Shown in pieces: positions 42,195 through 62,891 of a stretch of 64,000 nucleotides of DNA. The translations under genes and the position numbers were made by a program. This DNA is from an uncultured Roseobacter sp. (lineage in GTDB: Bacteria; Pseudomonadota; Alphaproteobacteria; Rhodobacterales; Rhodobacteraceae), in contig NZ_CANMNK010000001.1 in assembly GCF_947499265.1 (NCBI RefSeq), positions 85,001-149,000 on the forward strand. The letters run 5' to 3'. Position 1 is the first letter of the stretch. Each line of letters starts with the position of its first letter. The notes below the pieces were generated by a model, which was given only the letters and a program-made list of their open reading frames with translations, had not been told where the DNA came from and did no database searches.

Positions 42195-42198
42195 CGCC

Positions 42199-43998: not shown

Positions 43999-44015
43999 AG
44001 ATCTTCCTTCAGTAA

Positions 44016-46624: not shown

Positions 46625-46638
46625 AATATTCTCCCCAC

Positions 46639-47709: not shown

Positions 47710-48689
47710 CCAAAATTCTCATCATCGGTGGCGGGGGCATGGTTGGCCAAAAGCTGGCCGCCCGTCTGATCGAAAAGGGCCTGCCGGGCCATACAGATCT
47801 GGACATCACCCTTTTTGACGTAGCCTTCCCGCCAAAGGGCCTCAGTGGCCCGAAACAGAAAACCGGCAACCTGTCGACAGTTGGTGTTGCGCAAGACCTC
47901 GTGGCCTACAAACCGGACATCGTTTTCCACCTTGCGGCCATCGTGTCCGGCGAGGCGGAAACGGATTTTTCCAAGGGCTGGGATGTCAACATGATGTCGA
48001 TGTGGCACCTCCTCGAGGCATTTCGTAATGCATACGATGCATCGGGCGGCGCATATGTCCCGCGTCTGGTTTTCACCTCCTCCATCGCTGTTTTTGGCGG
48101 CCCTTTTCCAGAAAAGATCGACGATGAGTTCCTCTCGGCGCCGCAAACCAGCTACGGCGCGCAGAAAGCGATCAGCGAATTGATGCTCTCCGACTTCAGC
48201 CGCAAAGGTTTCCTCGACGGGGTATCGTTGCGGTTGCCCACGATCTGCGTCCGGCCCGGGAAAGCAAACCTGGCGGCATCCTCCTTCTTTTCCGGCATCA
48301 TCCGCGAACCGCTCAACGGCCAGGAAGCGATCCTGCCGGTCGCGGACAGCGTGCGACATTGGCACGCCTCCCCCCGCGCCGCAGCCGGATTTTTGGTGCA
48401 TGCGGCCACATTAGATACCAAGTTGCTAGAAGGTCGTCGTGCGCTCAATCTCCCCGGGCTGAGCTGTACAGTCGCAGAACAGATTGAAGCATTGCGGCGT
48501 ATTGCCGGTCAGGATGCAGTGGATCTGATCAAGGTCGCGCCCGATCCAGCAGTCATCAAGATCGTCGAGGGATGGCCCCGCAATTTCAACCCGAGCCGCG
48601 CCATCGCCTTGGGGTTCAAAGCTGAATCCACGTTTGATGAGATCATCCAGACCTATATTGCCGAGGATTTACCCAAGGCGTCCGTGTGA
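47706..48689 (+). CDS. denD: DenD-like D-erythronate dehydrogenase (extended SDR)
   Basis: This 327-residue NAD-dependent epimerase/dehydratase-fold enzyme has Rossmann motif IIGGGGMVGQKLAARL, Ser in FTSSIAVFGG and YxxxK in SYGAQKAIS. The N-terminal and PFPEKIDDEF regions agree with D-erythronate dehydrogenase DenD, which oxidises the C4 acid before phosphorylation by OtnK. OtnK, OtnC and OtnI are absent from this window, so another substrate is possible. Its last 37 bases overlap the end of the GntR gene, which runs the other way. Confidence 0.75.
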   Translation: MTKILIIGGGGMVGQKLAARLIEKGLPGHTDLDITLFDVAFPPKGLSGPKQKTGNLSTVGVAQDLVAYKPDIVFHLAAIVSGEAETDFSKGWDVNMMSMWHLLEAFRNAYDASGGAYVPRLVFTSSIAVFGGPFPEKIDDEFLSAPQTSYGAQKAISELMLSDFSRKGFLDGVSLRLPTICVRPGKANLAASSFFSGIIREPLNGQEAILPVADSVRHWHASPRAAAGFLVHAATLDTKLLEGRRALNLPGLSCTVAEQIEALRRIAGQDAVDLIKVAPDPAVIKIVEGWPRNFNPSRAIALGFKAESTFDEIIQTYIAEDLPKASV

Positions 48690-49342
48690 TGTTTTTGCGG
48701 TAAGGGCCGTATCAAATTGCGCGCCAGATGATCATTCACGGTGACCCGCATGAGGTCTTCATTTCGCTCAAGCGCGGCATCCAGAATCGCCTGATGCTCG
48801 CGAATATTTTCAGGGAAATAGCCATAATTTGTCTCCGCCGAGACGAGTTGCTGCCTGAATTGCTCGTAAATTACTTTATGCGTGCGCTTCAACAGACCGG
48901 AACCGCAGGCGTCGATGAGGGTCTCATGAAATTCCTGCTCCGCCCGGCTCCATAGACCCAGAAGTGGAATCACATCGCCGGATGATCGCACGCGGGTTTC
49001 GATATGAGAGAGCTTATGATGCGCGGCGGACAGGCGCGATTCCCACTCGACACCACCCAATCGAATGGACAGGCAAGCGCCCTCGGTTTCGAGCAATATC
49101 CGCATATGCGTCAGCTCGTGCTGACGCTCAACCGATTGAAAAGGTGACCTAAATCCGCGCTGCTCCTGAAAGTCGACAAGTCCGACCGTGGACAGGCGGA
49201 ACAGCACTTCCCGCACTGTGCTGGCGGAACAATTATAATCTTGGCGTAGCTTTTCCGCCCGCAGCTTGCTACCATATCCAAACTCGCCGGTAATCAGGCG
49301 GTGCCGCATGTCATCAAAGATGTCGGCGTCTTGAGCAGCCAT
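48653..49342 (-). CDS. GntR-family (FadR/FCD subfamily) transcriptional regulator
   Basis: This 229-residue repressor has a winged helix-turn-helix at the N-terminus (YGSKLRAEKLRQDYNCSASTVREVLFRL, quoted in part) followed by VGLVDFQEQRGF, and an all-helical FCD effector domain with acidic and histidine metal sites (HETLIDACGS, NIREHQAILDA). Such regulators bind sugar acids and release DNA. It is divergent from the TRAP operon with 190 bases between, where a candidate operator is seen. It probably controls the TRAP operon and itself. Its 3' end overlaps the opposite DenD-like gene by 37 bases. Confidence 0.9.
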   Translation of the reverse strand: MAAQDADIFDDMRHRLITGEFGYGSKLRAEKLRQDYNCSASTVREVLFRLSTVGLVDFQEQRGFRSPFQSVERQHELTHMRILLETEGACLSIRLGGVEWESRLSAAHHKLSHIETRVRSSGDVIPLLGLWSRAEQEFHETLIDACGSGLLKRTHKVIYEQFRQQLVSAETNYGYFPENIREHQAILDAALERNEDLMRVTVNDHLARNLIRPLPQKHHTDALGKSSAI

Positions 49343-49532: not shown

Positions 49533-50555
49533 ATGAAAATCATCAAAAAGGCGGCTTCGGTCGCCGCAGTTGCAGCCCTCGCGGCATCGACGGCGTTCAC
49601 CGCCGCGGCCGAGACAAGCAATCTGCGCATTCAAACGCACTACGCACCTGAAACGGTGTCTGGCAAGCTCGCCGCACAATATATGCAAGACATTCAGGAT
49701 ATGTCCAACGGCGAGATCGTCGTTGAAATGTTCTATTCGTCGTCGGTTGTGAAATCGGTCGAGACGTTTGACGCCGCATCCACCGGCATTCTGGATTGCG
49801 ACATGACAGGCGGCGGCTACCAGACCGGTAAGAACTCAGCGTTCCAATTCGTAGGCGACATCATGGGCGGCTATGACACGCCGTACCAGCAGCTGAGCTG
49901 GCTCTACTTCGGTGGCGGTCGCGAAGCGGCCGCACCGCTCTACAACAAATACGGCATGGAGCTGATCGGTTGGTGGGTCTACGGTCAGGAGAGCTTCGCC
50001 TCTTCCAAGCCCATCGCCAAGGTCGAAGACTTCAAGGACTGGAAATTCCGGTCGCCCCCCGGCATGGAAACCAAGATCTTTGAAAAACTGGGCGCCTCGC
50101 CCATCGTGATGGATTTCACCGAGATCTTTACCGCGCTGGAAACCGGTATCATCGATGGGGCGGATGCCTCGGGCCTAGCCAACAACGTGGGCCTGGGTCT
50201 CTATGACATCGTGAAATATGCCAACTTCCCCGGCTTCCACTCGATGCCATCGGACCACCTGGCCTGCAATAAGGCCGTGTTTGACGCGATGCCTGCGCAC
50301 CACCAGAAGATCATGAAGGTGGCGATGGAAGCGCTGGCGCTGCGCACGGCTCTGACGTTCGAGAAAAAGAACGCCGAAGCGGCTGCACAGCTGCGCGAGC
50401 AGGGCGTAACCCTGTCGCAGTGGGCACCAGAAGAGCTCGCCAAGTTCCGCGCCGCGGCCCAGGCCACATGGCCTGAGTTCGCTGACACGCCGGAAGCCAA
50501 GGCGCTGGTTGAGAGCCACCTGGCCTACCTGGAGCAGCTTGGTCTCAAGCAATAA
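49533..50555 (+). CDS. dctP: TRAP transporter substrate-binding protein (DctP family)
   Basis: This 340-residue periplasmic receptor of a sodium-driven TRAP importer has a signal peptide of about 26 residues (AALAASTAFTAAAE). The TAXI-free DctP pattern is present: the ligand-carboxylate arginine lies in DWKFRSPPGME, with EIFTALETGIIDGAD downstream. GGGAGG stands before the ATG. Related receptors bind C4 acids or uronates; with UxaA, UxaC and KDG kinase downstream, a hexuronate-like acid is the likely cargo. A terminator-like hairpin follows it, allowing more receptor than permease. Confidence 0.92.
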   Translation: MKIIKKAASVAAVAALAASTAFTAAAETSNLRIQTHYAPETVSGKLAAQYMQDIQDMSNGEIVVEMFYSSSVVKSVETFDAASTGILDCDMTGGGYQTGKNSAFQFVGDIMGGYDTPYQQLSWLYFGGGREAAAPLYNKYGMELIGWWVYGQESFASSKPIAKVEDFKDWKFRSPPGMETKIFEKLGASPIVMDFTEIFTALETGIIDGADASGLANNVGLGLYDIVKYANFPGFHSMPSDHLACNKAVFDAMPAHHQKIMKVAMEALALRTALTFEKKNAEAAAQLREQGVTLSQWAPEELAKFRAAAQATWPEFADTPEAKALVESHLAYLEQLGLKQ

Positions 50556-50570
50556 GCTGACCTGAAAACT

Positions 50571-50600
50571 GACCCCGCCGACACCCGGCGGGGTCTTTTT
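50571..50600 (+). terminator. Intercistronic terminator/attenuator after dctP
   Basis: GACCCCGCCG (50571-50580) pairs perfectly with CGGCGGGGTC (50586-50595) around a 5-nt loop, and five Ts follow. It lies between dctP and dctQ, so it should be leaky: partial termination would keep receptor mRNA in excess over permease and catabolic mRNA. Confidence 0.88.
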
Positions 50601-50653
50601 GTCTCGGGCCGGGGCAATCCATAACAATCGGCCACCGTGGTTGGGGAGAGATC

Positions 50654-51559
50654 ATGCAGGAAAAATCCGGAAGCCCTATCGAATGGCTCATACCGCTTGC
50701 TTTCATCGTCTGCGCGGCTTGGTTGACCTGGCATCTGCCCGCCTTCACGCTCTCATGGTTCCCGCCCGAAGACCCCTCACAATATGACAAGCTCAGCGCG
50801 CTCTTTGGGCGCATCGACGTGACGCCCGGGATGGGTGGATTGTTCGGCGGATATGCTGACATGGTCGACTGGGGCGCTCTGCTTTTGCTGCCGATCTTTG
50901 GCTACATCGGTGTGCGCACGGTCCGCCGCGCACCCATGGAATTCGAAAGCTGGAAACCGCTGGACCGGCTGGCCGTCTTCATCGGTCGGCTGACCATGAT
51001 GCTGATTGTCCTGCTCTGCTGCGTGATGATCTACGAGGTGATCCTGCGCTATGTCTTTGAAGCGCCAACGCTCTGGGCCAATGAACTCTCGCTCTGGCTG
51101 GCGGGCTTTGTGTTCCTATGCGCCGGGCTTTACGCCATGCAGCAACGCAGCCACATCCGCATTTTCCTGCTCTACGACATGCTGCCCCGCGTGCTGCAGC
51201 GCACCTGCGACTGTATATCGACAGCATTGATCGTAACGTTCGCTTTCTTTCTGGTCTATGGCGGATATGGCGAGGCCTTCGACAAGTTTTACCGCTGGGA
51301 AACCTTCGGCACAGCTTTCGACCCACCGATTCCGGCGACGCTCAAGCCCATGGTGTTACTGGTGATCGTGCTGGTGGCCTTTCAGGCGGTGGTCAATCTG
51401 GTGTCAGACTGGCACGCCGAACCGGTCATTCATTCCGCTGCCGATGACATCGACCCCGATGAGCTGGAGCGGATCAAGGCCGCCGTAGGATCCGACGGGA
51501 CCGGCGACCTCGACGTCACACGCGGCAGCATTCAATCCAACACCCCGAGGAACAGCTGA
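50654..51559 (+). CDS. dctQ: TRAP transporter small permease (DctQ) with extra N-terminal helices
   Basis: This 301-residue membrane protein is considerably longer than the usual DctQ (about 160-200). The canonical four-helix DctQ domain occupies about residues 108-260 and contains YEVILRYVFEAPTLWANELSLWL, the family hallmark (quoted in part). In front of it lie about 100 residues with two more hydrophobic helices (near residues 10-32 and 72-88) separated by a soluble loop. A charged C-terminal tail follows. Such longer forms occur in some marine TRAP systems. The stop overlaps the dctM start as TGATG. Confidence 0.88.
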   Translation: MQEKSGSPIEWLIPLAFIVCAAWLTWHLPAFTLSWFPPEDPSQYDKLSALFGRIDVTPGMGGLFGGYADMVDWGALLLLPIFGYIGVRTVRRAPMEFESWKPLDRLAVFIGRLTMMLIVLLCCVMIYEVILRYVFEAPTLWANELSLWLAGFVFLCAGLYAMQQRSHIRIFLLYDMLPRVLQRTCDCISTALIVTFAFFLVYGGYGEAFDKFYRWETFGTAFDPPIPATLKPMVLLVIVLVAFQAVVNLVSDWHAEPVIHSAADDIDPDELERIKAAVGSDGTGDLDVTRGSIQSNTPRNS

Positions 51560-53184
51560 TGGATATCGGTACAATTTCGCTGGTCCTGATGCTGGGCCTG
51601 ATCCTGCTGCTGGCCATCGGCATGCCGCTGGGGTTTGCCTCGGCCATCCTCGCGGTGCTGGTGCTGGTGATGAAGTTCGAGCCGACGCTGCTGATGAACC
51701 CGCTCACATTCGGCGATGGCATCCTGACCGGCAGGCCGGGATCGGGACCGCTGAACATCCTGGCGCAAAAGATATACGGGCTCTTAACGGATTATGTCCT
51801 CATATCCATCCCGCTCTTCATTTTCATGGCGGCCCTGCTGGAACGGTCCGGCATCGCCAAGGATATGTATTCCTCGCTGAACGTCTGGCTCAATCGCACC
51901 CGCGGCGGCATCGCCATTGTCACCTCGATCATGGCCGTCATCATGGCGGCGATGTCCGGCATCATTGGCGGTGAGGTCGTGTTGCTGGGCTTGATCGCGC
52001 TGCCGCAGATGCTGCGGCTGGGCTACAGCCAGAACCTCGCCATCGGTACGATCTGCGCCTCCGGCTCGCTGGGCACCATGATCCCGCCCTCGATCGTGCT
52101 GATCATCTACGGGCTGATCACCGAAACCTCGATCAAGGCACTCTTCACCGCCTCCTTCCTGCCGGGCTTCATGCTGGCGAGCTTCATCATCCTCTACATC
52201 ATCATCCGCACACAACTGCGCCCGCAGGATGCACCGCTGCCCGATCCGGTTGAAGGTGAACCCTACGGCATGGAAAAGGCCAAACTCTTTCTCGCCTTTC
52301 TCTGCGTCCTGATCGCAGGCTTTGGCACCGCACTGTTCCTGCGCGCGCTGTTTTTCGAACTGTCCGGCCAGAATGCGTCGAACACCGGGGCGGCCATCGC
52401 CTATGGCACTGCCGACTGGCTGCCATGGTTCGGCGGCGCGGTGCTGCTGTCCTTCGGCATGATGTTCGGCGTCCTGGGCCGTGAGCGGACGGCAACGGGC
52501 TGGTCCATGGGCAAGGGCCTCGTCCCGCCCATCGTCGTGATCGGCGTCGTGATGGGGTCGATCTATGGCGGCATCACCGGCATCACCGAGGCCGCAGGCA
52601 TGGGCGCGCTCGCCGTGCTCGTCATCGCCATCTGCCGTGGCGAGGCCTCTTTCGATCTGGTCTGGGACAGCCTGATGCGCACCCTGAAATCCACCGGCAC
52701 GATCATCTGGGTGACCATCGGGGCCGCAGCCCTTGCGGGTGCCTACACCATCGCGGGTGGCCCGGTTTACGTCGCCGATTTCATCGTCGGCTCCGACCTG
52801 CCGACCATGGGGATCATCCTTGCGATGATGCTGATCCTGCTCTTCATGGGTGCCTTCATGGATTGGGTGGGCATCGTTTTGCTGATCATCCCGGTGTTCC
52901 TACCGATCGTGCAGCGCCTGCCGATTGAGGAAATTGGTGTGTTTGGCGAACTCAATCCGCGCCACGTGGCGATCTGGTTCGGGGTGGTCTTCTGTATGAA
53001 CATGCAGGTGAGTTTCCTCAGCCCGCCCTTTGGACCGGCCGCGTTTTATCTGAAGTCCGTGGCACCGCCGCACATCAGCCTGACCGACATTTTCAAAGGG
53101 TTCCTGCCCTTCATCGGCATCCAGCTTTGTGCCCTGTCGGTCTTGCTGATCTGGCCACCCATCGTTTCATTGCTCCTGCCCTAA
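51559..53184 (+). CDS. dctM: TRAP transporter large permease (DctM)
   Basis: This 541-residue membrane subunit, with more than 12 hydrophobic segments, carries the sodium-coupled transport path. Family landmarks include GSGPLNILAQKIYGL, SGIAKDMYSSLNVWLNRTRGG, CASGSLGTMIPPSIVLIIYG and GAFMDWVGIVLLIIPVFLP. It is larger than average DctM (about 430) owing to an insert with two extra helices at about residues 230-310, consistent with the long DctQ. It is coupled to dctQ by a TGATG overlap and followed 16 bases later by the first oxygenase gene. Confidence 0.93.
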   Translation: MDIGTISLVLMLGLILLLAIGMPLGFASAILAVLVLVMKFEPTLLMNPLTFGDGILTGRPGSGPLNILAQKIYGLLTDYVLISIPLFIFMAALLERSGIAKDMYSSLNVWLNRTRGGIAIVTSIMAVIMAAMSGIIGGEVVLLGLIALPQMLRLGYSQNLAIGTICASGSLGTMIPPSIVLIIYGLITETSIKALFTASFLPGFMLASFIILYIIIRTQLRPQDAPLPDPVEGEPYGMEKAKLFLAFLCVLIAGFGTALFLRALFFELSGQNASNTGAAIAYGTADWLPWFGGAVLLSFGMMFGVLGRERTATGWSMGKGLVPPIVVIGVVMGSIYGGITGITEAAGMGALAVLVIAICRGEASFDLVWDSLMRTLKSTGTIIWVTIGAAALAGAYTIAGGPVYVADFIVGSDLPTMGIILAMMLILLFMGAFMDWVGIVLLIIPVFLPIVQRLPIEEIGVFGELNPRHVAIWFGVVFCMNMQVSFLSPPFGPAAFYLKSVAPPHISLTDIFKGFLPFIGIQLCALSVLLIWPPIVSLLLP

Positions 53185-53200
53185 CCACTGGGAATGACCC

Positions 53201-54148
53201 ATGCTCAGCGCTGCGCAAACCGCCTCTTTCGAACGCCAGGGTTTCCTTGTCGTCGAAGACGTGGTGCCGTCTGAGCTGCGCGCGCGTATCGCGGAGGAAT
53301 ACGAAGCGCTGTTGAACAGTCTCTATGCGGCATGGGCCAAACAGGGGCTGTTGCCCGCGCCTGATGACACCATGGATTTCTGGCAAAAACTGCGATGCGC
53401 CTATGAGGCCGGTTGCGACTGGTTTCAGCCGATGGATATTTCGCTGCCGGGCGATACGATCCACACGGATACGCCGATGCACTTCGGCCCAGCGGTTTTT
53501 GATCTGGTCACCTGTCCGCAGATATTGGATGTGGTGCAAAGCCTGATTGGCCCCGAGATCACCTCGAACCCGATCCAGCATCTTCGGATCAAACCACCCG
53601 CACCCGCATTGAAAAACGATGAGGTCCGCGCTCACATCACCCAGACGGATTGGCATCAGGATCGCGGCGTTGGCCATGAAGATGCCGACAGAACCGATAT
53701 GATCACCGTCTGGATCGCGATGACCGACGCAACCCCTGAAAACGGCTGTTTGCAAGTGATCCCCAAAGCGCATGATCAGATGCTGCCGCATTGTCCCAAA
53801 ACACAAACAGCCATCGCCGACGATTTCATTGACGCAGCGCGGGCGAGGCCGCTGCCCGTTCGCGCCGGTGGCATTTTACTGTTGCACCCGCTGACGCCGC
53901 ATGCCTCGTTGCCCAATGGCACAGATAATTTCCGCTGGTCTTTCGATCTGCGCTACAACGTGACGGGCCAGCCTACCGGGCGGGCGCATTTCCCTGAATT
54001 CGTGGCGCGCAGCACGGATGATCCCGGCGCGGTCTTGACCGACTGGCGTCTTTGGCGGCAGATGTGGCATGACGCGCGCAACACGCTTGCGCGGCAACCC
54101 CATATTCCCATTCATCGCTGGCAAAGCGATGCGCCGTTCTGCGCCTGA
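53201..54148 (+). CDS. Phytanoyl-CoA dioxygenase (PhyH) family Fe(II)/2-oxoglutarate oxygenase, first copy
   Basis: This 315-residue mononuclear iron oxygenase has the iron triad H152-x-D154 in DWHQDRG with the distal histidine H234 in LTPHASL, and the 2-oxoglutarate arginine R245 eleven residues later, all as in active PhyH enzymes. EDVVPSELRARI is the usual N-terminal family start. PhyH enzymes hydroxylate carbon next to carboxyl, ether or phosphonate groups. Position between the TRAP transporter and altronate dehydratase suggests that it acts on the imported sugar acid itself. A second PhyH gene follows two genes on. The ribosome site is weak. Confidence 0.87.
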   Translation: MLSAAQTASFERQGFLVVEDVVPSELRARIAEEYEALLNSLYAAWAKQGLLPAPDDTMDFWQKLRCAYEAGCDWFQPMDISLPGDTIHTDTPMHFGPAVFDLVTCPQILDVVQSLIGPEITSNPIQHLRIKPPAPALKNDEVRAHITQTDWHQDRGVGHEDADRTDMITVWIAMTDATPENGCLQVIPKAHDQMLPHCPKTQTAIADDFIDAARARPLPVRAGGILLLHPLTPHASLPNGTDNFRWSFDLRYNVTGQPTGRAHFPEFVARSTDDPGAVLTDWRLWRQMWHDARNTLARQPHIPIHRWQSDAPFCA

Positions 54149-54157
54149 GGAGAGACC

Positions 54158-55666
54158 ATGGACACCGTGCGCCTAGACCCCGTCGACAATGTCGTCACCG
54201 CCACCCGTGCGCTTGAGGTTGGTGTCGAGATCGAAGAAACCGCCACCCGCGCGCTGATCCCGTCCGGTCACAAGATCGCAACCTGCGCCATCGCGCGCGG
54301 CCAACCGATCCGTAAATACGCGCAGATCATTGGATATGCGGCCCAAGACATTGCGGCGGGTGACCATGTGCACACGCAAAACGTTGAATTCCGCAATACA
54401 CAAGCCGACTACGAATTCTCCACCGACTTGCGCCCTGTGGCACCCGTGCCGGAGGCGGCACGTGATACCTTTATGGGATACCGCCGCGAGAATGGGCAGG
54501 TTGGTACCCGTAACTACATTGCCATCGTCACCTCGGTGAACTGTTCGGCCACGGCGGCACGGATGATCGCCAGCCACTTCACACCTGAAGTGCTCGCCGA
54601 CTATCCGAATGTGGATGGTGTCGCGGCCTTTGTGCATGGCACCGGCTGCGGCATGGCCGACAGCGGCGACGGGTTTGAGGCCTTGCAACGGGTCATGTGG
54701 GGCTACGCGCGCCATCCCAACCACGCGGGCGTCCTGATGGTGGGTTTGGGCTGCGAAATGAACCAGATCGACTGGCTGCTGGAGGCCTATGGGCTCAGCC
54801 AGGGCCCTACGTTTCAGGTGATGAACATCCAGTCCGTCGCCGGTCTGCGCAAAACCGTTGCATTGGGGATCAAGAAGATCGAGGCCATGTTGCCCATCGC
54901 CAATGCCGCAACGCGCACGCCCTGCCCGGCCTCGGAATTGAAGGTTGCGCTGCAGTGTGGGGGCTCTGACGCGTGGTCCGGCATCACCGCCAACCCGGCC
55001 CTTGGATATGCCTGTGACCTGCTCGCGGCCCAGGGCGGCACCGGTGTTCTGGCCGAAACGCCCGAGATTTATGGCGCGGAACATCTGCTGACACGGCGCG
55101 CGACCGATCAGGTCACAGGCGAAAAGCTGGTGGGTCTGATCAGGTGGTGGGAGGATTACACCGCCCGCAACAAGGGATCGATGGACAACAATCCCTCCCC
55201 CGGAAACAAGACGGGTGGCCTGACCACCATTCTGGAAAAATCGCTGGGGGCCGCGGCCAAGGGCGGCACCAGCCCGTTGATGGGTGTCTACAAATACGCC
55301 GAGCCTGTGACGGCCCGCGGATTCACCTTCATGGACAGCCCCGGCTATGACCCCGCCAGCGTAACGGGGCAGATCGCGGGCGGCTGCAATCTGGTCTGTT
55401 TTACCACCGGGCGCGGCTCGGCTTTTGGGTCAAAACCAAGCCCCACGATCAAAGTGGCCACCAATTCGGCCATGGCCAAACGCATGCATGAGGATATGGA
55501 CGTCGACGCGGGCACGATCCTGACCGAAGGCGTGAGTGTCGAAGAGAAAGGGCGCGAAATCTACGACATGTTCCTGCGCGTCGCCAGCGGTGCCGCCACC
55601 AAATCCGAGGCGCAGGGCTTGGGCGATTATGAATTCGTGCCCTGGCAAATCGGGGCGGTGATGTGA
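54158..55666 (+). CDS. uxaA: Altronate dehydratase (UxaA family)
   Basis: This 502-residue enzyme has the two-part layout of E. coli UxaA: an N-terminal SAF domain (about 1-90) and a large catalytic domain starting near GYRRENGQVGTRNYIAIV. Cysteines that could hold iron are in HGTGCGMA and GLGCEMNQIDWLL. The expected reaction is D-altronate to 2-keto-3-deoxygluconate (KDG), the substrate of the kinase encoded downstream. Related GarD acts on galactarate, but length, SAF domain and the uxaC neighbour favour altronate. GGAGAG precedes the ATG. The stop overlaps the GTG of the next gene. Confidence 0.87.
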   Translation: MDTVRLDPVDNVVTATRALEVGVEIEETATRALIPSGHKIATCAIARGQPIRKYAQIIGYAAQDIAAGDHVHTQNVEFRNTQADYEFSTDLRPVAPVPEAARDTFMGYRRENGQVGTRNYIAIVTSVNCSATAARMIASHFTPEVLADYPNVDGVAAFVHGTGCGMADSGDGFEALQRVMWGYARHPNHAGVLMVGLGCEMNQIDWLLEAYGLSQGPTFQVMNIQSVAGLRKTVALGIKKIEAMLPIANAATRTPCPASELKVALQCGGSDAWSGITANPALGYACDLLAAQGGTGVLAETPEIYGAEHLLTRRATDQVTGEKLVGLIRWWEDYTARNKGSMDNNPSPGNKTGGLTTILEKSLGAAAKGGTSPLMGVYKYAEPVTARGFTFMDSPGYDPASVTGQIAGGCNLVCFTTGRGSAFGSKPSPTIKVATNSAMAKRMHEDMDVDAGTILTEGVSVEEKGREIYDMFLRVASGAATKSEAQGLGDYEFVPWQIGAVM

Positions 55667-56664
55667 AACGCATTCTGGTTGTCGGCGGCGGGCTGATCGG
55701 CATCCGCCATGTTGCAGCTATCCAGTCCCATCCGGACTGCGAGTTCGCTGGCCTGGTCGATCCCGATATGTCGATTGCGCCCGATCTGACCCGCTATCGG
55801 GACATGTCGGAGGTCGCAGGTGACGTGGATGGGGTGATCATCGCCACGCCGACCGCGCTGCACGCGCAACATGGAATTTATGCGGCGGAACGCGGGTGGC
55901 ACATGCTGGTTGAAAAGCCTGTCGCAACTGATCTCGCTGGTGCCCGCGCACTAGGGGCCGCGATTGCCAAATCAGGGGTCGGCTCGCTGGTCGGCCATCA
56001 CCGGCGATATCACCGCCCGGTCCAGCAGTTGAAAAAACTGATCTCTGACGGCAGCATCGGCACGCCCATCTGCGCCACTCTGATCTGGGCCATGCGCAAG
56101 CCGGATACCTATTTCGAGGGCAATTGGCGCACCGCGGGTGGCAGCCCGGTGATGATCAATCTGGTGCATGACATCGATCTCTTGCGCTTTGTAATCGGCG
56201 AGATTGTCACGACAACAGCGCTGCGTGGCAGTGGTCTGCGTGGCACCGCGCGGATCGAAAGTGGTGCGATCGCGCTGGCCTTCGCCAATGGGGCCACCGG
56301 AACCATCAGTTTTGCTGACACCTCCCCCAGCCCCTGGGGGTTTGAAGCAGGCACCGGGGAGAACCCCAACATCGGGACCACGCATCAGGACATGATGTGG
56401 ATCATGGGCACCAGGGGCGCGATCAGCTTTCCCTCGATGACGCTGTGGCAGGGTGAGGATTGGGCCCGGCCCGCCATGCCGGTGCCGCTCGACATCCTCG
56501 AAAACGGCAAGGCACCGCTGGACGCGCAGCTGGATCATTTTATCGACGTGATGGACGGGGCCGCCCCACTGATCGACGTCGCCGATGCGACCCGGACCCT
56601 TGCCACGGCTCTGGCGATCGAAGCGCAGCTGACCCCGCAATTGGAAGGCGTGGCCAATGCCTGA
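55663..56664 (+). CDS. Gfo/Idh/MocA-family sugar oxidoreductase, first copy
   Basis: This 333-residue NAD(P)-dependent oxidoreductase begins with VVGGGLIGIRHVAAIQ (Rossmann) and has the catalytic lysine motif MLVEKPVATD and VGHHRRYHRPV. The C-domain contains PVMINLVHDIDLLRFVIGE. It starts with GTG overlapping the uxaA stop (GTGA) and ends eight bases inside the next gene, so translation is coupled on both sides. It could oxidise or reduce the sugar ring of the imported compound. Two more members of this family occur near the window's right end. Confidence 0.87.
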   Translation: MKRILVVGGGLIGIRHVAAIQSHPDCEFAGLVDPDMSIAPDLTRYRDMSEVAGDVDGVIIATPTALHAQHGIYAAERGWHMLVEKPVATDLAGARALGAAIAKSGVGSLVGHHRRYHRPVQQLKKLISDGSIGTPICATLIWAMRKPDTYFEGNWRTAGGSPVMINLVHDIDLLRFVIGEIVTTTALRGSGLRGTARIESGAIALAFANGATGTISFADTSPSPWGFEAGTGENPNIGTTHQDMMWIMGTRGAISFPSMTLWQGEDWARPAMPVPLDILENGKAPLDAQLDHFIDVMDGAAPLIDVADATRTLATALAIEAQLTPQLEGVANA

Positions 56665-57544
56665 AACGCTCTCAACAGACCAGATCGCGCGCTATCAGGA
56701 ACAGGGTTACCTGGTGCTGGAAAACCAGGTTCCTGCGGAATGGCTGTCGCGTATCCACGCGGAAATCGCCCGGTTCGAGCAGGAAGCACGCGGCATGACC
56801 GAAAGCAATGACCGCCTCGACCTCGAAGACAGCCACACGCCTGATGCGCCCCGCCTGCGGCGGATCAAACTGCCGCACACCACGTCGGATGTCATGCGGG
56901 AGCTGATGTATTCAGATCACATCCTGGCGCCCGCGCGCGATCTGATCGGGCCGGATTTGCGCCTGCACACAACCAAACTCAACATGAAATCAGCAGGCTA
57001 CGGCGCTGCCGTCGAATGGCATCAGGACTACGCGTTTTACCCACATACCAACGACGACATCCTCGCCATCGGTGTTTTGATTGACGATATGGCGCCGGAG
57101 AATGGTCCGCTGATGGTCTATCCCGGCTCGCACAAGGGCCCGGTGTTCGATCACCACGTGGATGGCGTGTTTGCCGGTGCCATGCTGCCGGAAGAAAACG
57201 GGCTGAACCCGGCGGATGCGGTGCAACTGACCGGACCGGCGGGATCGATCAGCATCCACCACGGGCGCATCGTGCACGGCTCCGCGCTCAACACTTCCGA
57301 CCGGTCACGGCGCATTCTGTTTTACGAGATGATGGCGGCGGATGCTTTCCCGATCATGGGGTCGATGACCAAATGGGACGGGATCAAAGACTATGACACG
57401 CGGATGCTCTGCGGAAACAGTACCCTGAACCCGCGCCTCAAAGATATCCCGGTGCGCATTCCGCAGCCGCAACCGGATGTGCCGATCTCCATCTATGAAA
57501 TTCAAAAAGGCCTGAAGAAACGGGCCTTCGATACCATCACATAA
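56657..57544 (+). CDS. Phytanoyl-CoA dioxygenase (PhyH) family oxygenase, second copy
   Basis: This 295-residue Fe(II)/2-oxoglutarate oxygenase has iron ligands H122-x-D124 in EWHQDYAFYPH and H207 in RIVHGSA, with R218 in SDRSRRILFY placed for 2-oxoglutarate. It is not a close duplicate of the first copy: the first copy lacks YPHTNDDILAIGV and PLMVYPGSHKGPV, which here follow the EctD/PhyH mainstream. The two oxygenases probably act on different positions or successive intermediates. It overlaps the upstream oxidoreductase gene by 8 bases and precedes a beta-hydroxyacid dehydrogenase by 24. Confidence 0.88.
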   Translation: MPETLSTDQIARYQEQGYLVLENQVPAEWLSRIHAEIARFEQEARGMTESNDRLDLEDSHTPDAPRLRRIKLPHTTSDVMRELMYSDHILAPARDLIGPDLRLHTTKLNMKSAGYGAAVEWHQDYAFYPHTNDDILAIGVLIDDMAPENGPLMVYPGSHKGPVFDHHVDGVFAGAMLPEENGLNPADAVQLTGPAGSISIHHGRIVHGSALNTSDRSRRILFYEMMAADAFPIMGSMTKWDGIKDYDTRMLCGNSTLNPRLKDIPVRIPQPQPDVPISIYEIQKGLKKRAFDTIT

Positions 57545-57568
57545 CCGCGCAGGCGAAAAGGACAGCAA

Positions 57569-58456
57569 ATGACACACCCCACAATCGGATTTATTGGCCT
57601 CGGCCTGATGGGCGCAGCCATGGTTGGGCGCCTGCAGGACAAGGGTTACGCGCTGACGGTCACGGCGAACCGCTCGCGCCCGAACGTTGACGCGGCGGTG
57701 GCGCGCGGCGCCGTCGAGGTGGCCACCGCCCGTGATGTGGCCGCCGCCAGCGATATCGTCATGCTGTGCATGGACACCAGTGACAGCGTCGAGGGGCGGA
57801 TGCGCGGCCCCGACGGCGTCATTGCCGGGCTGCGCGACGGGGCCACGGTCATTGATTTCGGCACCTCCCTGCCCGGCAGCACCCGCAGCCTGAGCGAAGA
57901 GGTTGCCGCAGCGGGCGGCAGCTATCTGGATGCGCCACTGGGCCGCACGCCCTCACACGCCAAGGACGGGCTGCTCAACATCATGGCGGCGGGGGACAAA
58001 GCCGCCTTTGACGCGGTTGAGCCGGTGCTTAAGGACCTGGGCGAAAACGTCTTTCACCTCGGGGCCTCCGGGTCCGGGCATACGATCAAGCTGATCAACA
58101 ACTTCTTCGGCATGACCGTTGCAAATGCCATGGCCGAGGCCTTTGCCATGGCGGATGTCGCCGGCATCGACCGCAAACAGCTTTACGATGTGATGTCCGC
58201 AGGTCCCCTGCATTCGGGCATGATGGATTTCGTCAAGGGCTACGGTCTGGACGGCGATCCCAACCAATTGGCTTTTGCCATCCGAAACGCGGCAAAGGAC
58301 GTCGGATACTATGCCCGCATGGCAGATGAGGCAGGCGTTGAAAGCATCATGTCCAAATGTGCGCTCTCTGCCCTGCGCGAAGCAACAGATACCGGGTTCG
58401 GCGATCACATGGTCAGCCAGATGATCGATTTCTACGTCCAGAAAATGGGCAAGTAG
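57569..58456 (+). CDS. Beta-hydroxyacid dehydrogenase (3-hydroxyisobutyrate dehydrogenase family), second copy
   Basis: This 295-residue enzyme has Rossmann motif FIGLGLMGAAMVGRLQ, substrate loop LDAPLGRTPSHAKDGLL (note LGRTP in place of the usual VSGG), and catalytic lysine in GSGHTIKLINNFFG. The family includes tartronate-semialdehyde reductase, threonate dehydrogenase and gamma-hydroxybutyrate dehydrogenase. The changed substrate loop suggests a different substrate from the copy at 46.8-47.7 kb. AAGGA lies before the ATG. It forms part of the oxygenase/uronate operon, one base before the transporter gene. Confidence 0.87.
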   Translation: MTHPTIGFIGLGLMGAAMVGRLQDKGYALTVTANRSRPNVDAAVARGAVEVATARDVAAASDIVMLCMDTSDSVEGRMRGPDGVIAGLRDGATVIDFGTSLPGSTRSLSEEVAAAGGSYLDAPLGRTPSHAKDGLLNIMAAGDKAAFDAVEPVLKDLGENVFHLGASGSGHTIKLINNFFGMTVANAMAEAFAMADVAGIDRKQLYDVMSAGPLHSGMMDFVKGYGLDGDPNQLAFAIRNAAKDVGYYARMADEAGVESIMSKCALSALREATDTGFGDHMVSQMIDFYVQKMGK

Positions 58457-58457
58457 C

Positions 58458-59339
58458 ATGGCCGTCAGCGCGGGCCTGCTCGAGGACCGCCCTCATTTTG
58501 GCATCATGCTCATGCTGGGGGCGTGGCTGCTCTTTGCCTTCGTTGACACCAGTGCCAAATGGCTGGTGATCCTGGGGTTTCCGGCCTTTCAATTGGCCTT
58601 CATGCGCTATGCCGGGCACTTCGTGATCTCGGTCGCCGTGATCGCCAAGGGGGGTATTGCGCGGGATCGTTTTCAGACCGGGCACATGTGGCAGGTGCTG
58701 AGCCGTGCGATGCTGCTGGTGATGGCCACACTGTCGAATTTCTATGCGCTGAACTTCCTGCCGCTGACGGTCACCGCCGCCATCATGTTTTCCAGCCCCG
58801 TGATCGTCTGCGCGCTGTCCGGGCCGCTGCTGGGCGAGCATGTCGGCCCTTGGCGCTGGTTTGCCATTCTGTTGGGGTTTGCCGGTGTGCTCGTCGTGAT
58901 CCGTCCTTTTGGCGAAGCCTTTCATATCGCGATGATCCTGCCGCTTCTCAACTCGCTGAGCCTCGCGCTCTATTCGATCATGACGCGCAGGCTGGCCGGT
59001 GTCGTCGCCACCGAGACGATGCAGTTTTACATGGGCGCGCTGGGGACAGCCGTAATGTTGCCGCTGGCTCTTTGGGCCTGGAAATGGCCGGATAATCCGA
59101 TGGATTGGATGATCCTGATCGGGCTTGGCGTCTTTGGCTGGGCCGGTCACCAACTGCTGACGAATGCGCACCGGTTCGGCTCGGCCAACACCCTGATGCC
59201 CTACACCTATTCATTCATGATTTACCTGTCTGTCCTGAGCTATCTGGTCTTTCAACACCTGCCGGATCAGTGGACGGTCATTGGGGCAATGATCATCGTC
59301 ATCTCGGGCCTGATCATCTGGAAAAGGGAGCAACGATAA
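58458..59339 (+). CDS. EamA/DMT-family transporter
   Basis: This 293-residue membrane protein with ten hydrophobic helices contains two EamA repeats. Markers are LLFAFVDTSAKWLVILGFPAFQLAFMRYAGH at the N-terminus (quoted in part) and LGEHVGPWRWFAILLGFAGVLVVIRP. The family exports or imports small metabolites, including amino acids, sugars and nucleotide precursors. In this operon it might export an aldehyde or acid intermediate. Its stop overlaps the KDG kinase ATG as TAATG, so both are translated together. Confidence 0.88.
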   Translation: MAVSAGLLEDRPHFGIMLMLGAWLLFAFVDTSAKWLVILGFPAFQLAFMRYAGHFVISVAVIAKGGIARDRFQTGHMWQVLSRAMLLVMATLSNFYALNFLPLTVTAAIMFSSPVIVCALSGPLLGEHVGPWRWFAILLGFAGVLVVIRPFGEAFHIAMILPLLNSLSLALYSIMTRRLAGVVATETMQFYMGALGTAVMLPLALWAWKWPDNPMDWMILIGLGVFGWAGHQLLTNAHRFGSANTLMPYTYSFMIYLSVLSYLVFQHLPDQWTVIGAMIIVISGLIIWKREQR

Positions 59340-60208
59340 TGCGTGTGGCCTGTGTTGGCGAAGCGATGATAGAGCTGTCCATGCAAGGGACAGCGGCGCA
59401 AATTGGCGTGGCGGGCGATACGCTCAATACCGCGATTTATCTCAAGCGTGCTGCCCCGAACTTGGCGGTCGACTATGTTACCTGCGTCGGCGATGATCCC
59501 TTCTCCGCGCGGATCACGGAGTTCATCGCGGCGCAGAATATTGGCTGCCGGAACATCAAAGCCATCACCGGGAAATCGCCGGGCCTTTATGCGATCACGA
59601 CAAATGACACAGGTGAGCGCGCCTTTACCTATTGGCGGAGCGCTTCGGCGGCACGTCAGATGTTTCAGGTGGATGGCACATTCGATTTCTCCCCTCTGGC
59701 AGATTACGACGTGGTTTACCTCTCCGGCATCACCATGGCGATCCTGCCGCAGGCGGTGCGGCTGGCGCTGATCGACTGGTTGGCACAGAATAAGGCGCAG
59801 GTGGCCTACGATAGCAACTATCGCCCGCGGCTTTGGGAAGACGTGCAAGTGGCGCAGGAGGTGACCCGCACGCTTTGGGCACAGGCGGATATTGCCCTGC
59901 CGTCCATCGACGACGAAATGGATCTCTTTGGGGAAACCGAGGATCAGGTTGCAGCCCGTTTTCTGGCACTTTCCACGCAAGGCGCGTTGAAACGCGGTGC
60001 GCAGGGGCCATTGTCGCTTGGCGAAGCCGTCGATCAGGCCTACGCCCCTGCCGCAAAAGTCGTCGACACAACGGCGGCAGGCGACAGTTTCAACGGCGGG
60101 TATCTCGGCGCGCTACTGTCTGGCCAATCGCAAGCTGATGCACTGCGCGCGGGTCACAATTGTGCGGCCAGAGTTGTACAGCATCGCGGTGCGATTATTC
60201 CAGAATAG
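59339..60208 (+). CDS. kdgK: 2-keto-3-deoxygluconate kinase (PfkB family)
   Basis: This 289-residue sugar kinase converts KDG to KDPG. The PfkB pattern is present: VACVGEAMIELS and the GGD-like VAGDTLNTAIYL at the substrate end, YDSNYRPRLW, then the ATP/anion-hole motif DTTAAGDSFNGGYLGAL with the base aspartate (the first glycine of the usual GAGD is alanine). The start overlaps the previous stop by one base. Together with UxaC, the reductase and UxaA it closes the route from hexuronate to KDPG. KDPG aldolase is not in the window. The 3' end overlaps the convergent reductase gene by 14 bases. Confidence 0.88.
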   Translation: MRVACVGEAMIELSMQGTAAQIGVAGDTLNTAIYLKRAAPNLAVDYVTCVGDDPFSARITEFIAAQNIGCRNIKAITGKSPGLYAITTNDTGERAFTYWRSASAARQMFQVDGTFDFSPLADYDVVYLSGITMAILPQAVRLALIDWLAQNKAQVAYDSNYRPRLWEDVQVAQEVTRTLWAQADIALPSIDDEMDLFGETEDQVAARFLALSTQGALKRGAQGPLSLGEAVDQAYAPAAKVVDTTAAGDSFNGGYLGALLSGQSQADALRAGHNCAARVVQHRGAIIPE

Positions 60209-61415
60209 GCGTCGCGAGATCCCGCGCGCCCATCAAAGCCAACAGCGCGTCGTCCGCGGCACCTGCGCCGATGATACGGGCAACCTTGTCCCCCATCGGG
60301 TCTTGCAACAGACGGCCTGCGCCCACCTCATGCCGACAAAACCGGATCCAGGACCGCACGCCGTCCGATAAAACGGGCGCAGGCTGGCCCATGGATTTCA
60401 GGGCGCGAATACTGTCCAGCATCCGGTAGGGCAGCTTTTGCGTCCCATCCATCGCGATCTGCCGCAGGCTGTGGTTGATGTGCGGGTTGTCGAACCGCGC
60501 AATCAGCGCATCCGCATAATCGGGCGCAATCTCCTGCATTTCCGGTGTCAGCGTTTGCGCCGCTTCCATCATCAGCGCCCGCGCATTTTCGCGCAAATCG
60601 GGATCACAAACAGCCTCATGCACATAGGTATGCCCGGCCAAAGAACCCGCATAGGCCAGCATCGAATGCGCCGCATTCAGCATCCTGAGCTTGCGCGTCT
60701 CATGGGGGGCGACATCCTGTGCGAACTGCACATCCGGCCAATCCGGGCGCGGCGCGGCAAAGCGATCCTCGATCACCCACTCGCGAAAGGGCTCCGAGGG
60801 CACCGCCATGGCGTCACCTGTCAGCGCGCGCAAATCCTGCGTTGTCGCGGGTGTGATACGGTCCACCATGCTGTTGGGAAAGGTGATCTGGGACAGATCC
60901 AACGGCAGCCCTGCAGCCTGAGCAAACGCCACGACCGCGGCCTCCAGCACATCGCCGTTCGAAACGCGATTGTCGCAGCTCAGGACAGTCACTGGCTTCG
61001 ACCGTGCCGCCAACCCATAGGCCAGAAAACCGATGACAGTGCGCAGTGTCTTTCCCGCCAAGTCGCTCGCAATCAACGGGTCCGCAACGTCAAGTTGGTT
61101 GTCTGCCGTGAGATGGTAGCCTTTTTCGGTCACCGTGATCGAAACGATATGAACATCCGGTGAAGCAATCTGCTTCAAAACCGCCTGCGGGTCTTCGGGA
61201 GCCACCAGAACTTCATCAAAGACGGTGATCGGCTTGACGCCCTGGCCCTGGATCGCAAGACCGTAATCATAGTGCTGCGCCCGCAACCCATTGCGCACAC
61301 CTGCCGACCGCAAGCTGACCCCGGTCACAGACCAGCCGCCCGCGTCCTGCGTGTAGTCCGCCAGATGGGCGCGGCAGAAGTTGCCAACACCGATGTGCAA
61401 AATACGATGATTCAT
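60195..61415 (-). CDS. Mannitol-dehydrogenase-family hexuronate reductase (tagaturonate or fructuronate reductase)
   Basis: This 406-residue NAD-dependent enzyme is shorter than E. coli UxaB/UxuB (about 480). The N-terminal LHIGVGNFCRAHLADY and VTVLSCDNRVSNGD are family sequences; FPNSMVDRITPAT carries the NxxxDRITP signature, and the lysine-bearing RKLRMLNAAHSMLAYAG is the catalytic helix. Since UxaA, not UxuA, is in the cluster, reduction of tagaturonate to altronate is the better fit, but the sequence looks as close to fructuronate reductase. It overlaps the uxaC start by four bases and is the second gene of a two-gene minus-strand unit. Confidence 0.8.
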   Translation of the reverse strand: MNHRILHIGVGNFCRAHLADYTQDAGGWSVTGVSLRSAGVRNGLRAQHYDYGLAIQGQGVKPITVFDEVLVAPEDPQAVLKQIASPDVHIVSITVTEKGYHLTADNQLDVADPLIASDLAGKTLRTVIGFLAYGLAARSKPVTVLSCDNRVSNGDVLEAAVVAFAQAAGLPLDLSQITFPNSMVDRITPATTQDLRALTGDAMAVPSEPFREWVIEDRFAAPRPDWPDVQFAQDVAPHETRKLRMLNAAHSMLAYAGSLAGHTYVHEAVCDPDLRENARALMMEAAQTLTPEMQEIAPDYADALIARFDNPHINHSLRQIAMDGTQKLPYRMLDSIRALKSMGQPAPVLSDGVRSWIRFCRHEVGAGRLLQDPMGDKVARIIGAGAADDALLALMGARDLATPILE

Positions 61416-62773
61416 GATCCCAACCTATAGGCTTTGCGTGCAAGGTCCGTGGCCAACAAAGGGGCGAGCGTCCGCGCATCCGACAGATCGAAAACGCCGC
61501 GCCTGACCTGCTGTTCCAGGTGCAGCGCGACCCCACGGCGCCACATATCATGTCGCGCCGGGATAGACAAAAACGCCCGCGTGTCATCGTTGAAACCGGC
61601 AAGATTGTGATACCCCGCCGTTTCTACGACCTGATCGAAATAGCGCGCAATGCCTGCGGCGCTGTCATGGAACCACCAGGGCGGTCCGATGCGCAGACAC
61701 GGCCAGTGCCCGGCCATCGGGGCCAGTTCACGCGCATAGGTCGTCTCGTCCAGCGTAAACAGCAAAAGCGTGAAGTCCGGTGTGTTCCCGACCCGGTTCA
61801 GCAGCGCTTCCAGCCCGCGCACCCAATCCACCGCAATCGGAATATCGGCCCCTTTGTCGCGGCCGAACGCCTCCAGCACCGCGTGATTTGTGTTGCGCCT
61901 GCTGCCGCCGTGGATCTGCATGACCAGCCCGTCCTCGACGGACATCTGCGCCATTTCAATCAACATGTGTCCGTAAAACGCCTGTACATCCGCCGGTGAG
62001 GCCGTGCCCCGGTGCAACCGCTGGAACATCATGTCGGGATCGTCCAGCCATTCGGTATGGATCTCTTCGATGGCGTGATCTGTCGCCGTCGCCCCCATGG
62101 CTTTAAAAAACGCGCGGCGCTGGCGCAGGGCGCTCAGGTACCCCGGAAAGCTGCCGGTATCCGTCCCGGTCAGGACACCGAGTGTCTCGACATTGCGCAG
62201 AAAAGCGGGATCGGCAGGGTCAAGCACACCATCAGGCCGGAAGGTTGGAATGATCCGCCCGGACCACTCGCCATCAGCAATGGCTTGATGATGCGATAGA
62301 TCGTCCAGCGCACCATCTGTTGTTGCCAGAACCTCGATGCCAAAGCGGTCAAACAGGGCACGCGGTCGAAACGCGGGCTGCGCCAGCTTTTCCGCGATCT
62401 GGTCATAGACCTGATCCGCTGTCGCTTCGGACAATTTCGTGTTGATCCCCAATGTCCGTGTGAGCACATAGCGCATCCAGAAATGCGACGGCGTGCCCAG
62501 AAACAGATGCCAATGCCGCGCGAAAAGTCGAAAAATGCTGCGCGGCTCGGCAGTCTGTCCCGGGACCCCAATGCCCAGATCCGCAAGGGATACGCCCTGC
62601 GAGTAGAGCATGCGAAAGACGTAGTGATCGGGCACAACCAACAACGCCGCGGGATCCGGAAAAGCGGCATCGGTTGCGAACCACGCCGGATCACAATGAC
62701 CATGTGGCGATACCATGGGCAAATCGCGGATGTCGTCGTAAAGCGACCCCGCCGCTCCGGTTAATTCATGCAC
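61412..62773 (-). CDS. uxaC: Glucuronate/galacturonate isomerase
   Basis: This 453-residue amidohydrolase-fold isomerase turns galacturonate into tagaturonate (or glucuronate into fructuronate). It has the metal-binding H-x-H in VSPHGHCDP near residue 24, VLATTDGALDDLSHH, MQIHGGSRRNTNH and GFNDDTRAFLSIPARHDMWRR, all strongly typical. A GTG start with AGGAG 8 bases before it was chosen over a GTG three codons earlier. The gene is divergent from a Gfo/Idh/MocA gene with 118 bases between and coupled to the reductase gene by a four-base overlap. Confidence 0.93.
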   Translation of the reverse strand: MHELTGAAGSLYDDIRDLPMVSPHGHCDPAWFATDAAFPDPAALLVVPDHYVFRMLYSQGVSLADLGIGVPGQTAEPRSIFRLFARHWHLFLGTPSHFWMRYVLTRTLGINTKLSEATADQVYDQIAEKLAQPAFRPRALFDRFGIEVLATTDGALDDLSHHQAIADGEWSGRIIPTFRPDGVLDPADPAFLRNVETLGVLTGTDTGSFPGYLSALRQRRAFFKAMGATATDHAIEEIHTEWLDDPDMMFQRLHRGTASPADVQAFYGHMLIEMAQMSVEDGLVMQIHGGSRRNTNHAVLEAFGRDKGADIPIAVDWVRGLEALLNRVGNTPDFTLLLFTLDETTYARELAPMAGHWPCLRIGPPWWFHDSAAGIARYFDQVVETAGYHNLAGFNDDTRAFLSIPARHDMWRRGVALHLEQQVRRGVFDLSDARTLAPLLATDLARKAYRLGS

Positions 62774-62891
62774 GGCGACCACTCCTGAATGCCCCTGTTT
62801 TGCGGGACGATATCATGATTTTCAAGGCGCGCATCTTTTGCTTGGCCTGACGCGCGTTTCCTGTAAATCTCCGCCCAAATTGGGGGTGGAT

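Follow-up and report, generated by a model that had tools for sequence, protein, structure and literature searches.

Several enzymes of the PhyH family, FJS and PHYHD1 included, were described in 2025 to O-demethylate 2'-O-methyl nucleosides with 2-oxoglutarate, and formaldehyde release was shown for FJS in the parts of that paper compared here (PMC12709175). In marine porphyran degraders, the methyl ether of the algal sugar 6-O-methyl-D-galactose is removed oxidatively by a cytochrome P450 (PMC10033563), and the L-gulonate pathway of Haemophilus influenzae (GulPQM, GulD, UxuB, UxuA, KdgK, KdgA) joins hexonate import by a tripartite ATP-independent periplasmic (TRAP) transporter to UxuB, UxuA and a 2-keto-3-deoxygluconate (KDG) kinase (PMC5788505). 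Here, an operon is reported in which two dissimilar PhyH-type Fe(II)/2-oxoglutarate oxygenases, designated PhyH1 and PhyH2, are interleaved with genes for a TRAP transporter and a sugar-acid dehydratase. It lies in a 64,000-nucleotide stretch (the window, G000:C1:85001-149000) of an uncultured Roseobacter sp. genome of 5.23 Mb in 28 contigs. The gene neighbourhood recurs across related genomes, and the oxygenases look like optional parts of it.

The operon runs from dctP to a PfkB kinase gene on the + strand (49533-60208), the spacing between its open reading frames (ORFs) ranging from -8 bp (an overlap) to +98 bp. The gene order is as follows:

49533..50555, + strand: DctP, TRAP solute receptor (Pfam DctP, 161 bits)
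50654..51559, + strand: DctQ, TRAP small membrane subunit (ORF; named by position and size)
51559..53184, + strand: DctM, TRAP large membrane subunit (ORF; named by position and size)
53201..54148, + strand: PhyH1, Fe(II)/2-oxoglutarate oxygenase, 315 aa (Pfam PhyH, 92.8 bits)
54158..55666, + strand: UxaA/GarD-family sugar-acid dehydratase (Pfam SAF, GD_AH_second and GD_AH_C)
55663..56664, + strand: Gfo1, Gfo/Idh/MocA oxidoreductase (Pfam)
56657..57544, + strand: PhyH2, second Fe(II)/2-oxoglutarate oxygenase, 295 aa (Pfam PhyH, 126.7 bits)
57569..58456, + strand: HAD2, beta-hydroxyacid dehydrogenase (Pfam NAD_binding_2 and NAD_binding_11)
58458..59339, + strand: EamA-type membrane protein (ORF; named by reading, no Pfam run)
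59339..60208, + strand: PfkB sugar kinase, probably a KDG kinase (Pfam PfkB; best model KdgK, 277.8 bits, below the cut-off of 400)

The labels DctQ and DctM, given from gene position and size, and the label EamA, given from reading the sequence, are our assumptions. PhyH1 starts 16 bp after DctM and is separated from the dehydratase gene by 9 bp; the dehydratase gene overlaps Gfo1 by 4 bp, Gfo1 overlaps PhyH2 by 8 bp, and 24 bp lie between PhyH2 and HAD2. The best model for HAD2 was tartronate semialdehyde reductase, at 156.7 bits below its cut-off of 340.75.

Both oxygenases exceed the Pfam PhyH (PF05721) cut-off of 22 bits. They share 25% identity over 249 aa, and a profile comparison, at 99.2% probability, paired H152 of PhyH1 with H122 of PhyH2, D154 with D124, H234 with H207 and R245 with R218. 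These H-x-D...H and arginine residues, which from family knowledge we take to be the iron and 2-oxoglutarate ligands, showed no variation in 40/40 aligned rows for PhyH1 (the window plus 39 of 81 sequences) and 24/24 rows for PhyH2 (the window plus 23 of 33 sequences). AlphaFold2 models, with a mean predicted local distance difference test score (pLDDT) of 88.3 for PhyH1 and 87.6 for PhyH2, matched solved PhyH-type oxygenases in the double-stranded beta-helix fold (best Foldseek E 6.0e-15 and 2.7e-19, respectively). The top Foldseek matches of PhyH1 were ThoJ, PHYHD1 (second), SyrB2 and EvdO2; those of PhyH2 included the proline hydroxylase H11, the leucine hydroxylase GriE and PHYHD1 (ranks 9 and 21), with a query template modelling (TM) score of up to 0.71. 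Residues and predicted fold confirm PhyH1 and PhyH2 as genuine, intact and dissimilar PhyH-type oxygenases, so far as sequence and models can tell; this bears out the description in an earlier note on this DNA, which had read from the letters two dissimilar oxygenases with full catalytic residues that abut or overlap the operon genes. In SyrB2-like halogenases, the Asp of the H-x-D motif is replaced by Ala or Gly. A reading of either protein as a 2-oxoglutarate halogenase is rejected because this Asp is retained in every aligned PhyH1 and PhyH2 row.

To follow the genes through 198 genomes of the family, orthologues were delimited at visible drops in identity (from 45 to 36% for PhyH1, 69 to 62% for the dehydratase and 65 to 51% for PhyH2), all identity thresholds being set by us. 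PhyH1 orthologues (45-66% identity) were found in 37/198 genomes, weaker matches being at or below 36%; PhyH2 orthologues (at least 65%) were found in 22/198 and the dehydratase clade (at least 69%) in 57/198, any dehydratase match at E 1e-40 occurring in 126/198. PhyH genes of any kind are so common (141/198) that only orthologues and adjacency carry weight in the argument. The dehydratase clade was present in 31/37 genomes with PhyH1 versus 26/161 others (Fisher p = 6.5e-15), and in 22/22 genomes with PhyH2 versus 35/176 others (p = 3.9e-14), these tests counting genomes as independent although they are related. Coordinates placed PhyH1 and the dehydratase gene less than 1 kb apart on one contig in 28 of the 31 genomes of co-occurrence.

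For the gene order itself, 36 and 80 loci were fetched, the named-contig scan contributing the best 80 of 294 confirmed relatives; removal of 11 duplicates with identical PhyH1 core DNA from these 116 left 105 distinct loci, whose ORFs were called by our own codon-usage scripts. Flanks of no less than 6 kb upstream and 8 kb downstream were available for 89 loci (the full-flank set), the other 16/105 falling short of this. Any gene within the fetched stretch, which reached up to ~10 kb on each side, was taken as a neighbour, so that genes farther away, UxaC among them, are undercounted. Among the 89 full-flank loci, DctP was detected in 80, DctQ in 79, DctM in 81, the dehydratase in 72, HAD2 in 72 and EamA in 75, followed by SDR (64), IlvD-type (58), Gfo1 (47), DenD (45), FAH (45) and HIBADH-like genes (38), PhyH2 (37), the PfkB kinase (37), the enolase-superfamily gene MR2 (18), an AroE-like gene (12) and an FAD-dependent DAO-type gene (4). 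The GntR regulator of the window was seen in 44/89 and a different one, GntR2, in 27/89.

The dehydratase gene begins 3-125 bp past PhyH1 in 68 of the 72 cases, ~1.5 kb after it in two and ~10.9 kb upstream in two, and it is the first labelled gene to follow PhyH1 in 76/105 loci. Upstream of PhyH1, 92/105 loci have a DctM gene on the same strand, no more than 250 bp away in 83 of them, and HAD2 is the nearest labelled gene after 31/41 PhyH2 copies. Contigs that carry the operon bear the titles Roseobacter, Ruegeria and Tateyamaria and those of many further Rhodobacteraceae; the five closest named contigs by PhyH1 are titled Roseobacter, at 73-76% identity, in a listing that may omit the window's own genome. 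TRAP, PhyH1, HAD2 and EamA also occur together in three loci with Rhizobiaceae titles (L135, L140, L142), the dehydratase in L140 only. The operon is thus real and conserved, beyond chance, in many marine Rhodobacteraceae. PhyH1 and UxaA-type dehydratase genes are conserved neighbours; given this adjacency, the non-conservation that the earlier note had named as speaking against its idea did not materialise.

As the 105 loci were gathered by likeness to PhyH1, the frequency of operons lacking PhyH1 is not readable from them and was addressed with the 198 family genomes and 20 PhyH1-less loci, taken from 20 of 26 such genomes. In nine of these 20 loci the dehydratase gene comes directly after DctM, 46-229 bp from it; HAD2 is present in 8/9 and EamA in 7/9. 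One of the 20 has an enolase-superfamily gene in between, and ten have no such TRAP gene directly upstream. A quick tree was built of 103 dehydratases, a set PhyH1-enriched by design; on it, the presence of PhyH1 (83/103) needs at least 18 changes and that of PhyH2 (40/103) at least 11, counts that were not compared with shuffles; a test of PhyH1 versus PhyH2 in independent pairs on the same tree had four supported pairs and no power. In addition, a cluster of similar ORFs occurs in six loci, the one member tested matching DRL_cat and directly following PhyH1. The shared core is TRAP-dehydratase-HAD2-EamA, and the variable parts are PhyH1, PhyH2, Gfo1 and the AroE-like, DAO-type and DRL-like genes. 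PhyH1 and PhyH2 have the look of modular additions, alongside further oxidoreductases that vary. It is unlikely that the core route depends on PhyH1, since the operon exists in related genomes without PhyH1.

Further variation was seen around the core. An extra enolase-superfamily gene is inserted between DctP and DctQ in L059, L062, L082, L083, L100 and others, a placement not found in the window; the member tested is nearest to an arabinonate dehydratase model, below its cut-off. A second operon type carries GntR2 (L064, L067, L077, L138, L150 and similar), some of its loci having transketolase-like genes and an Azf-like dehydrogenase. PhyH2 (at least 55% identity) was found in 0/29 GntR2 loci versus 30/47 GntR loci. 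A distant PhyH2-like oxygenase (44-47%) is present in some loci of the GntR2 type (L116:13642-14499, L133:17625-18506, L134, L060), where it immediately precedes IlvD in L116 and L133, is close to IlvD in L134 and lies next to SDRc20 in L060; in some GntR2-type loci, a HAD-type dehydrogenase adjoins it. In L090, L091, L159 and L163, the PhyH1 homologue has a single enolase-superfamily gene or other genes as its neighbours.

The dehydratase shares 36.6% identity with Escherichia coli UxaA and likewise with GarD (293 and 291 bits). Altronate as its substrate is therefore not established, and an identity as the altronate dehydratase UxaA is not supported, the protein being no nearer to UxaA than to GarD. 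Nor is it assignable to the galactarate dehydratase GarD, as it scored 372 bits with the GarD model TIGR03248, under the curated cut-off of 730.85. The substrates known for this family are sugar acids (UxaA, GarD) or sulfolactate. Several dehydratase relatives in the 198 genomes (32-35% identity) read across one in-frame stop, mostly TAA, and may be two-gene members with a small and a large subunit rather than broken genes.

The best solved relatives of the receptor DctP are 4pe3 (171 bits, for which the listing gives no ligand), 2zzv (126 bits), 7ug8, 'Ketoacid-binding protein' (114 bits), and 7e9y, 'Lactate-binding periplasmic protein TTHA0766' (101 bits). The genome holds 18 DctP genes, the window copy included. 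In a search for a separate hexuronate receptor, two of the 17 others were compared with solved structures; one is nearest to C4-dicarboxylate receptors, and the second had no solved-structure match at 1e-60.

The operon is flanked by the following genes:

46822-47709, + strand: HIBADH-like dehydrogenase
47706-48689, + strand: DenD-like D-erythronate dehydrogenase (NCBIfam DenD, 357.5 bits, above the cut-off of 325)
48653..49342, - strand: GntR/FCD regulator, divergent from dctP (Pfam GntR and FCD)
60195..61415, - strand: UxuB-like reductase of a hexuronate module (fructuronate reductase model, 244 bits, below the cut-off of 603)
61412..62782, - strand: UxaC uronate isomerase of the hexuronate module (NF002794, 487.3 bits, above the cut-off of 387)

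The UxuB-like and UxaC genes (60195-62782) are convergent with the PfkB kinase gene at a junction at 60.2 kb. Lying on the opposite strand past this junction, they are not part of the oxygenase operon, in which the earlier note had included them. UxaC, with one copy found in the genome, is 28% identical to the E. coli enzyme. A UxuA gene over its cut-off, the sole PF03786 match in the genome, is located at G000:C1:150979-152154 on the + strand, ~2 kb beyond the window end. It is preceded by three Gfo-type genes in a row on the + strand, the first at 62886-63929 and the next two identified by reading; the stretch L174:927-4161 corresponds to window coordinates from 63926 onward and continues beyond the end of the window. 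Textbook knowledge has it that UxaC, UxuB, UxuA and a kinase suffice to take glucuronate through mannonate to 2-keto-3-deoxy-6-phosphogluconate, without a UxaA-type enzyme. With UxaC and UxuA over their cut-offs and the UxuB-like and KdgK-like proteins below theirs, the glucuronate branch of the Ashwell route looks complete at the family level. The classical galacturonate route that had been proposed for the locus is not supported in that form, the dehydratase being equidistant from UxaA and GarD and UxaC, the UxuB-like protein and UxuA forming the glucuronate/mannonate branch; the reductase is nearest to fructuronate reductase, at a score below that model's cut-off. UxaC was seen in 23/89 and the UxuB-like gene in 22/89 full-flank loci, both lower bounds; for UxaC this is because the gene lies at least 7 kb downstream of PhyH1 in the window and the flanks stop at 8-10 kb. 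It is better to regard the glucuronate module as a neighbour of the oxygenase operon, with KDG as an endpoint that the two may share.

Upstream of the operon, at 41100-46642 on the - strand, a divergent set comprises enolase-superfamily, 2-hydroxyacid dehydrogenase, FAH-family, IlvD-type dehydratase and SDR genes. Its enolase-superfamily member is nearest to a talarate/galactarate dehydratase model, and its FAH-family member resembles 2,4-didehydro-3-deoxy-L-rhamnonate hydrolase (440 bits, below the cut-off of 500). The set looks like a non-phosphorylating sugar-acid route, relatives of which recur near PhyH1 (IlvD 58/89, SDR 64/89).

Since the core occurs without PhyH1, the oxygenases most plausibly turn variants of the imported acid into a form acceptable to the core. 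In the mechanism we propose, the TRAP transporter would import an organic acid of the sugar-acid type, and the UxaA/GarD-family dehydratase would convert it to a 2-keto-3-deoxy acid that could then be processed either by a kinase and an aldolase or by a dehydrogenase and a hydrolase. As optional front-end enzymes, PhyH1 and PhyH2 would let the same core use decorated acids. Each would be an Fe(II)-dependent enzyme that hydroxylates a C-H bond in the decoration at the expense of O2 and 2-oxoglutarate, the carbon most likely belonging to an O-alkyl or O-carboxyalkyl ether, and the resulting unstable hemiacetal would yield the free acid and an aldehyde or oxo acid. HAD2, beside PhyH2, might reduce a carboxy-aldehyde so released.

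That the oxygenases serve the pathway of their operon is held with good confidence; O-dealkylation as their chemistry is put forward tentatively. Gene order, conservation, optionality and intact catalytic residues are established by the sequence itself, and we infer, above all, the dealkylation chemistry, and likewise the substrate class and the order of steps. O-dealkylation is favoured over plain hydroxylation because optionality suits the removal of a decoration, together with the PhyH demethylase precedent and the position of HAD2 beside PhyH2. The earlier note had envisaged oxidative stripping before uronate use; of this, a widening of the substrate range is reasonable, as the oxygenases are optional around the core, and the dealkylation is plausible, though unproven. 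For its algal or O-methylated substrate no evidence was found, and formaldehyde-handling genes are not neighbours. Ethers of glycerate or lactate, Kdo, and rhamnonate or apiose-type compounds were also considered as substrates, with no claim made for any of them. A wider view, which we consider possible but somewhat unlikely, is that the TRAP-dehydratase core acts as a widespread modular 'adapter' system onto which lineages bolt interchangeable oxidative enzymes (PhyH1, PhyH2, AroE-like, DAO-type, DRL-like, Gfo), each to remove or convert a different decoration, the PhyH proteins providing oxidative ether cleavage of sugar acids in marine bacteria without a P450.

Several observations weigh against O-dealkylation of a sugar acid. 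The closest solved relatives of PhyH2, in sequence and fold, are the free amino-acid hydroxylases GriE and H11, a pointer to plain C-H hydroxylation, and the fold match of PhyH1 is modest, with a query TM of 0.47-0.57 and a root-mean-square deviation of 5-12 Å over the 50 listed Foldseek matches. Human PHYH and some other PhyH members tested showed no demethylation in the parts of the 2025 paper compared (PMC12709175). The dehydratase is missing from 17/89 full-flank PhyH1 loci, and the homologues in L090, L091, L159 and L163 (42-62% identity) have no detected TRAP gene nearby; the best solved relatives of DctP, 4pe3 aside, include lactate and keto-acid receptors. Near PhyH1, E. coli FrmB matched in 1/105 loci and FrmA, weakly (at most 27% identity), in 3/105, so that no formaldehyde route is linked to the loci; such genes may lie elsewhere. 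Part of this evidence fits a scheme that we regard as possible but somewhat unlikely, in which PhyH1 and PhyH2 release no alkyl group but add a hydroxyl or oxo group to an acid of the same pathway that is deoxy, branched or unfit in some other way, and the dehydrogenases (HAD2, Gfo1, AroE-like) and the dehydratase can then act on it. GriE, H11 and EctD, to which PhyH2 is nearest in sequence and fold, hydroxylate unactivated carbons; other oxidoreductases stand near the same place elsewhere (AroE-like in 12/89, DAO-type in 4/89, DRL_cat-type ORFs in six loci), and the lack of formaldehyde genes nearby agrees with it. Yet the existence of related operons without PhyH1 makes an obligatory hydroxylation in the core unlikely.

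The operon might also not be primarily for uronates: the TRAP transporter would import another carboxylate, amino-acid-derived or of the osmolyte type, with the PhyH proteins as its hydroxylases and UxaC, UxuB, UxuA and the kinase as an independent glucuronate module. The counts of UxaC (23/89) and UxuB (22/89; lower bounds, as said), the convergent orientation at 60.2 kb, the lactate and keto-acid receptors among the DctP relatives and, at a few loci, the presence of DAO-type and aminotransferase genes nearby are in line with this. However, the known substrates of the dehydratase family are sugar acids or sulfolactate, and sugar-acid enzymes recur near PhyH1 (IlvD-type 58, DenD 45, FAH 45 and MR2 18 of 89), and we judge this explanation improbable. 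Accidental co-transcription of the oxygenases as unrelated passengers could account for the lack of PhyH1 in related operons and of PhyH2 in 52/89 full-flank PhyH1 loci, but it is nearly refuted already by the tight, repeated adjacency in most of the 105 loci and the family-wide co-occurrence.

If the oxygenases do strip ethers from sugar acids, modified and otherwise refractory uronic or aldonic acids would re-enter metabolism without P450s. The Rhodobacteraceae are a group known for the turnover of dissolved algal carbon. The presence or absence of PhyH genes between otherwise similar operons makes their role directly testable across strains. Among the open-licence PubMed Central papers listed in the searches, none was found whose title or abstract start describes the gene set, and an operon with two optional oxygenases is undescribed as far as the literature searched shows. 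The earlier note's statement that the process is not described for this gene set stands to this extent; the chemistry can no longer be called new for the PhyH family, judging from the parts of the 2025 paper compared (PMC12709175).

Compared with the described systems, the area of the window resembles the H. influenzae L-gulonate pathway in TRAP import and in its UxuB-like, UxuA and PfkB proteins; that pathway includes neither an oxygenase nor a UxaA/GarD-type dehydratase in the parts of the paper compared, and here UxuB and UxaC form a separate module at some loci (PMC5788505). The porphyran degraders are likewise marine and remove a methyl ether oxidatively, but with a P450, redox partners and adjacent alcohol dehydrogenase genes, in other organisms and on another sugar, as far as the compared parts of that paper go (PMC10033563). 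GriE and H11 (Foldseek identity 24-29%) and EctD (19-25%) rank with the solved proteins closest to PhyH2 in sequence and fold; unlike them, PhyH2 sits in a sugar-acid operon. PHYHD1 and FJS differ from PhyH1 and PhyH2 in acting on nucleosides and in having no TRAP/dehydratase operon in the parts compared, PHYHD1 reaching a Foldseek identity of 18-21%; they share with PhyH1 and PhyH2 the PF05721 fold and the H-x-D...H motif, and the chemistry proposed here would be the same 2-oxoglutarate-dependent removal of an alkyl ether from a sugar carbon (PMC12709175).

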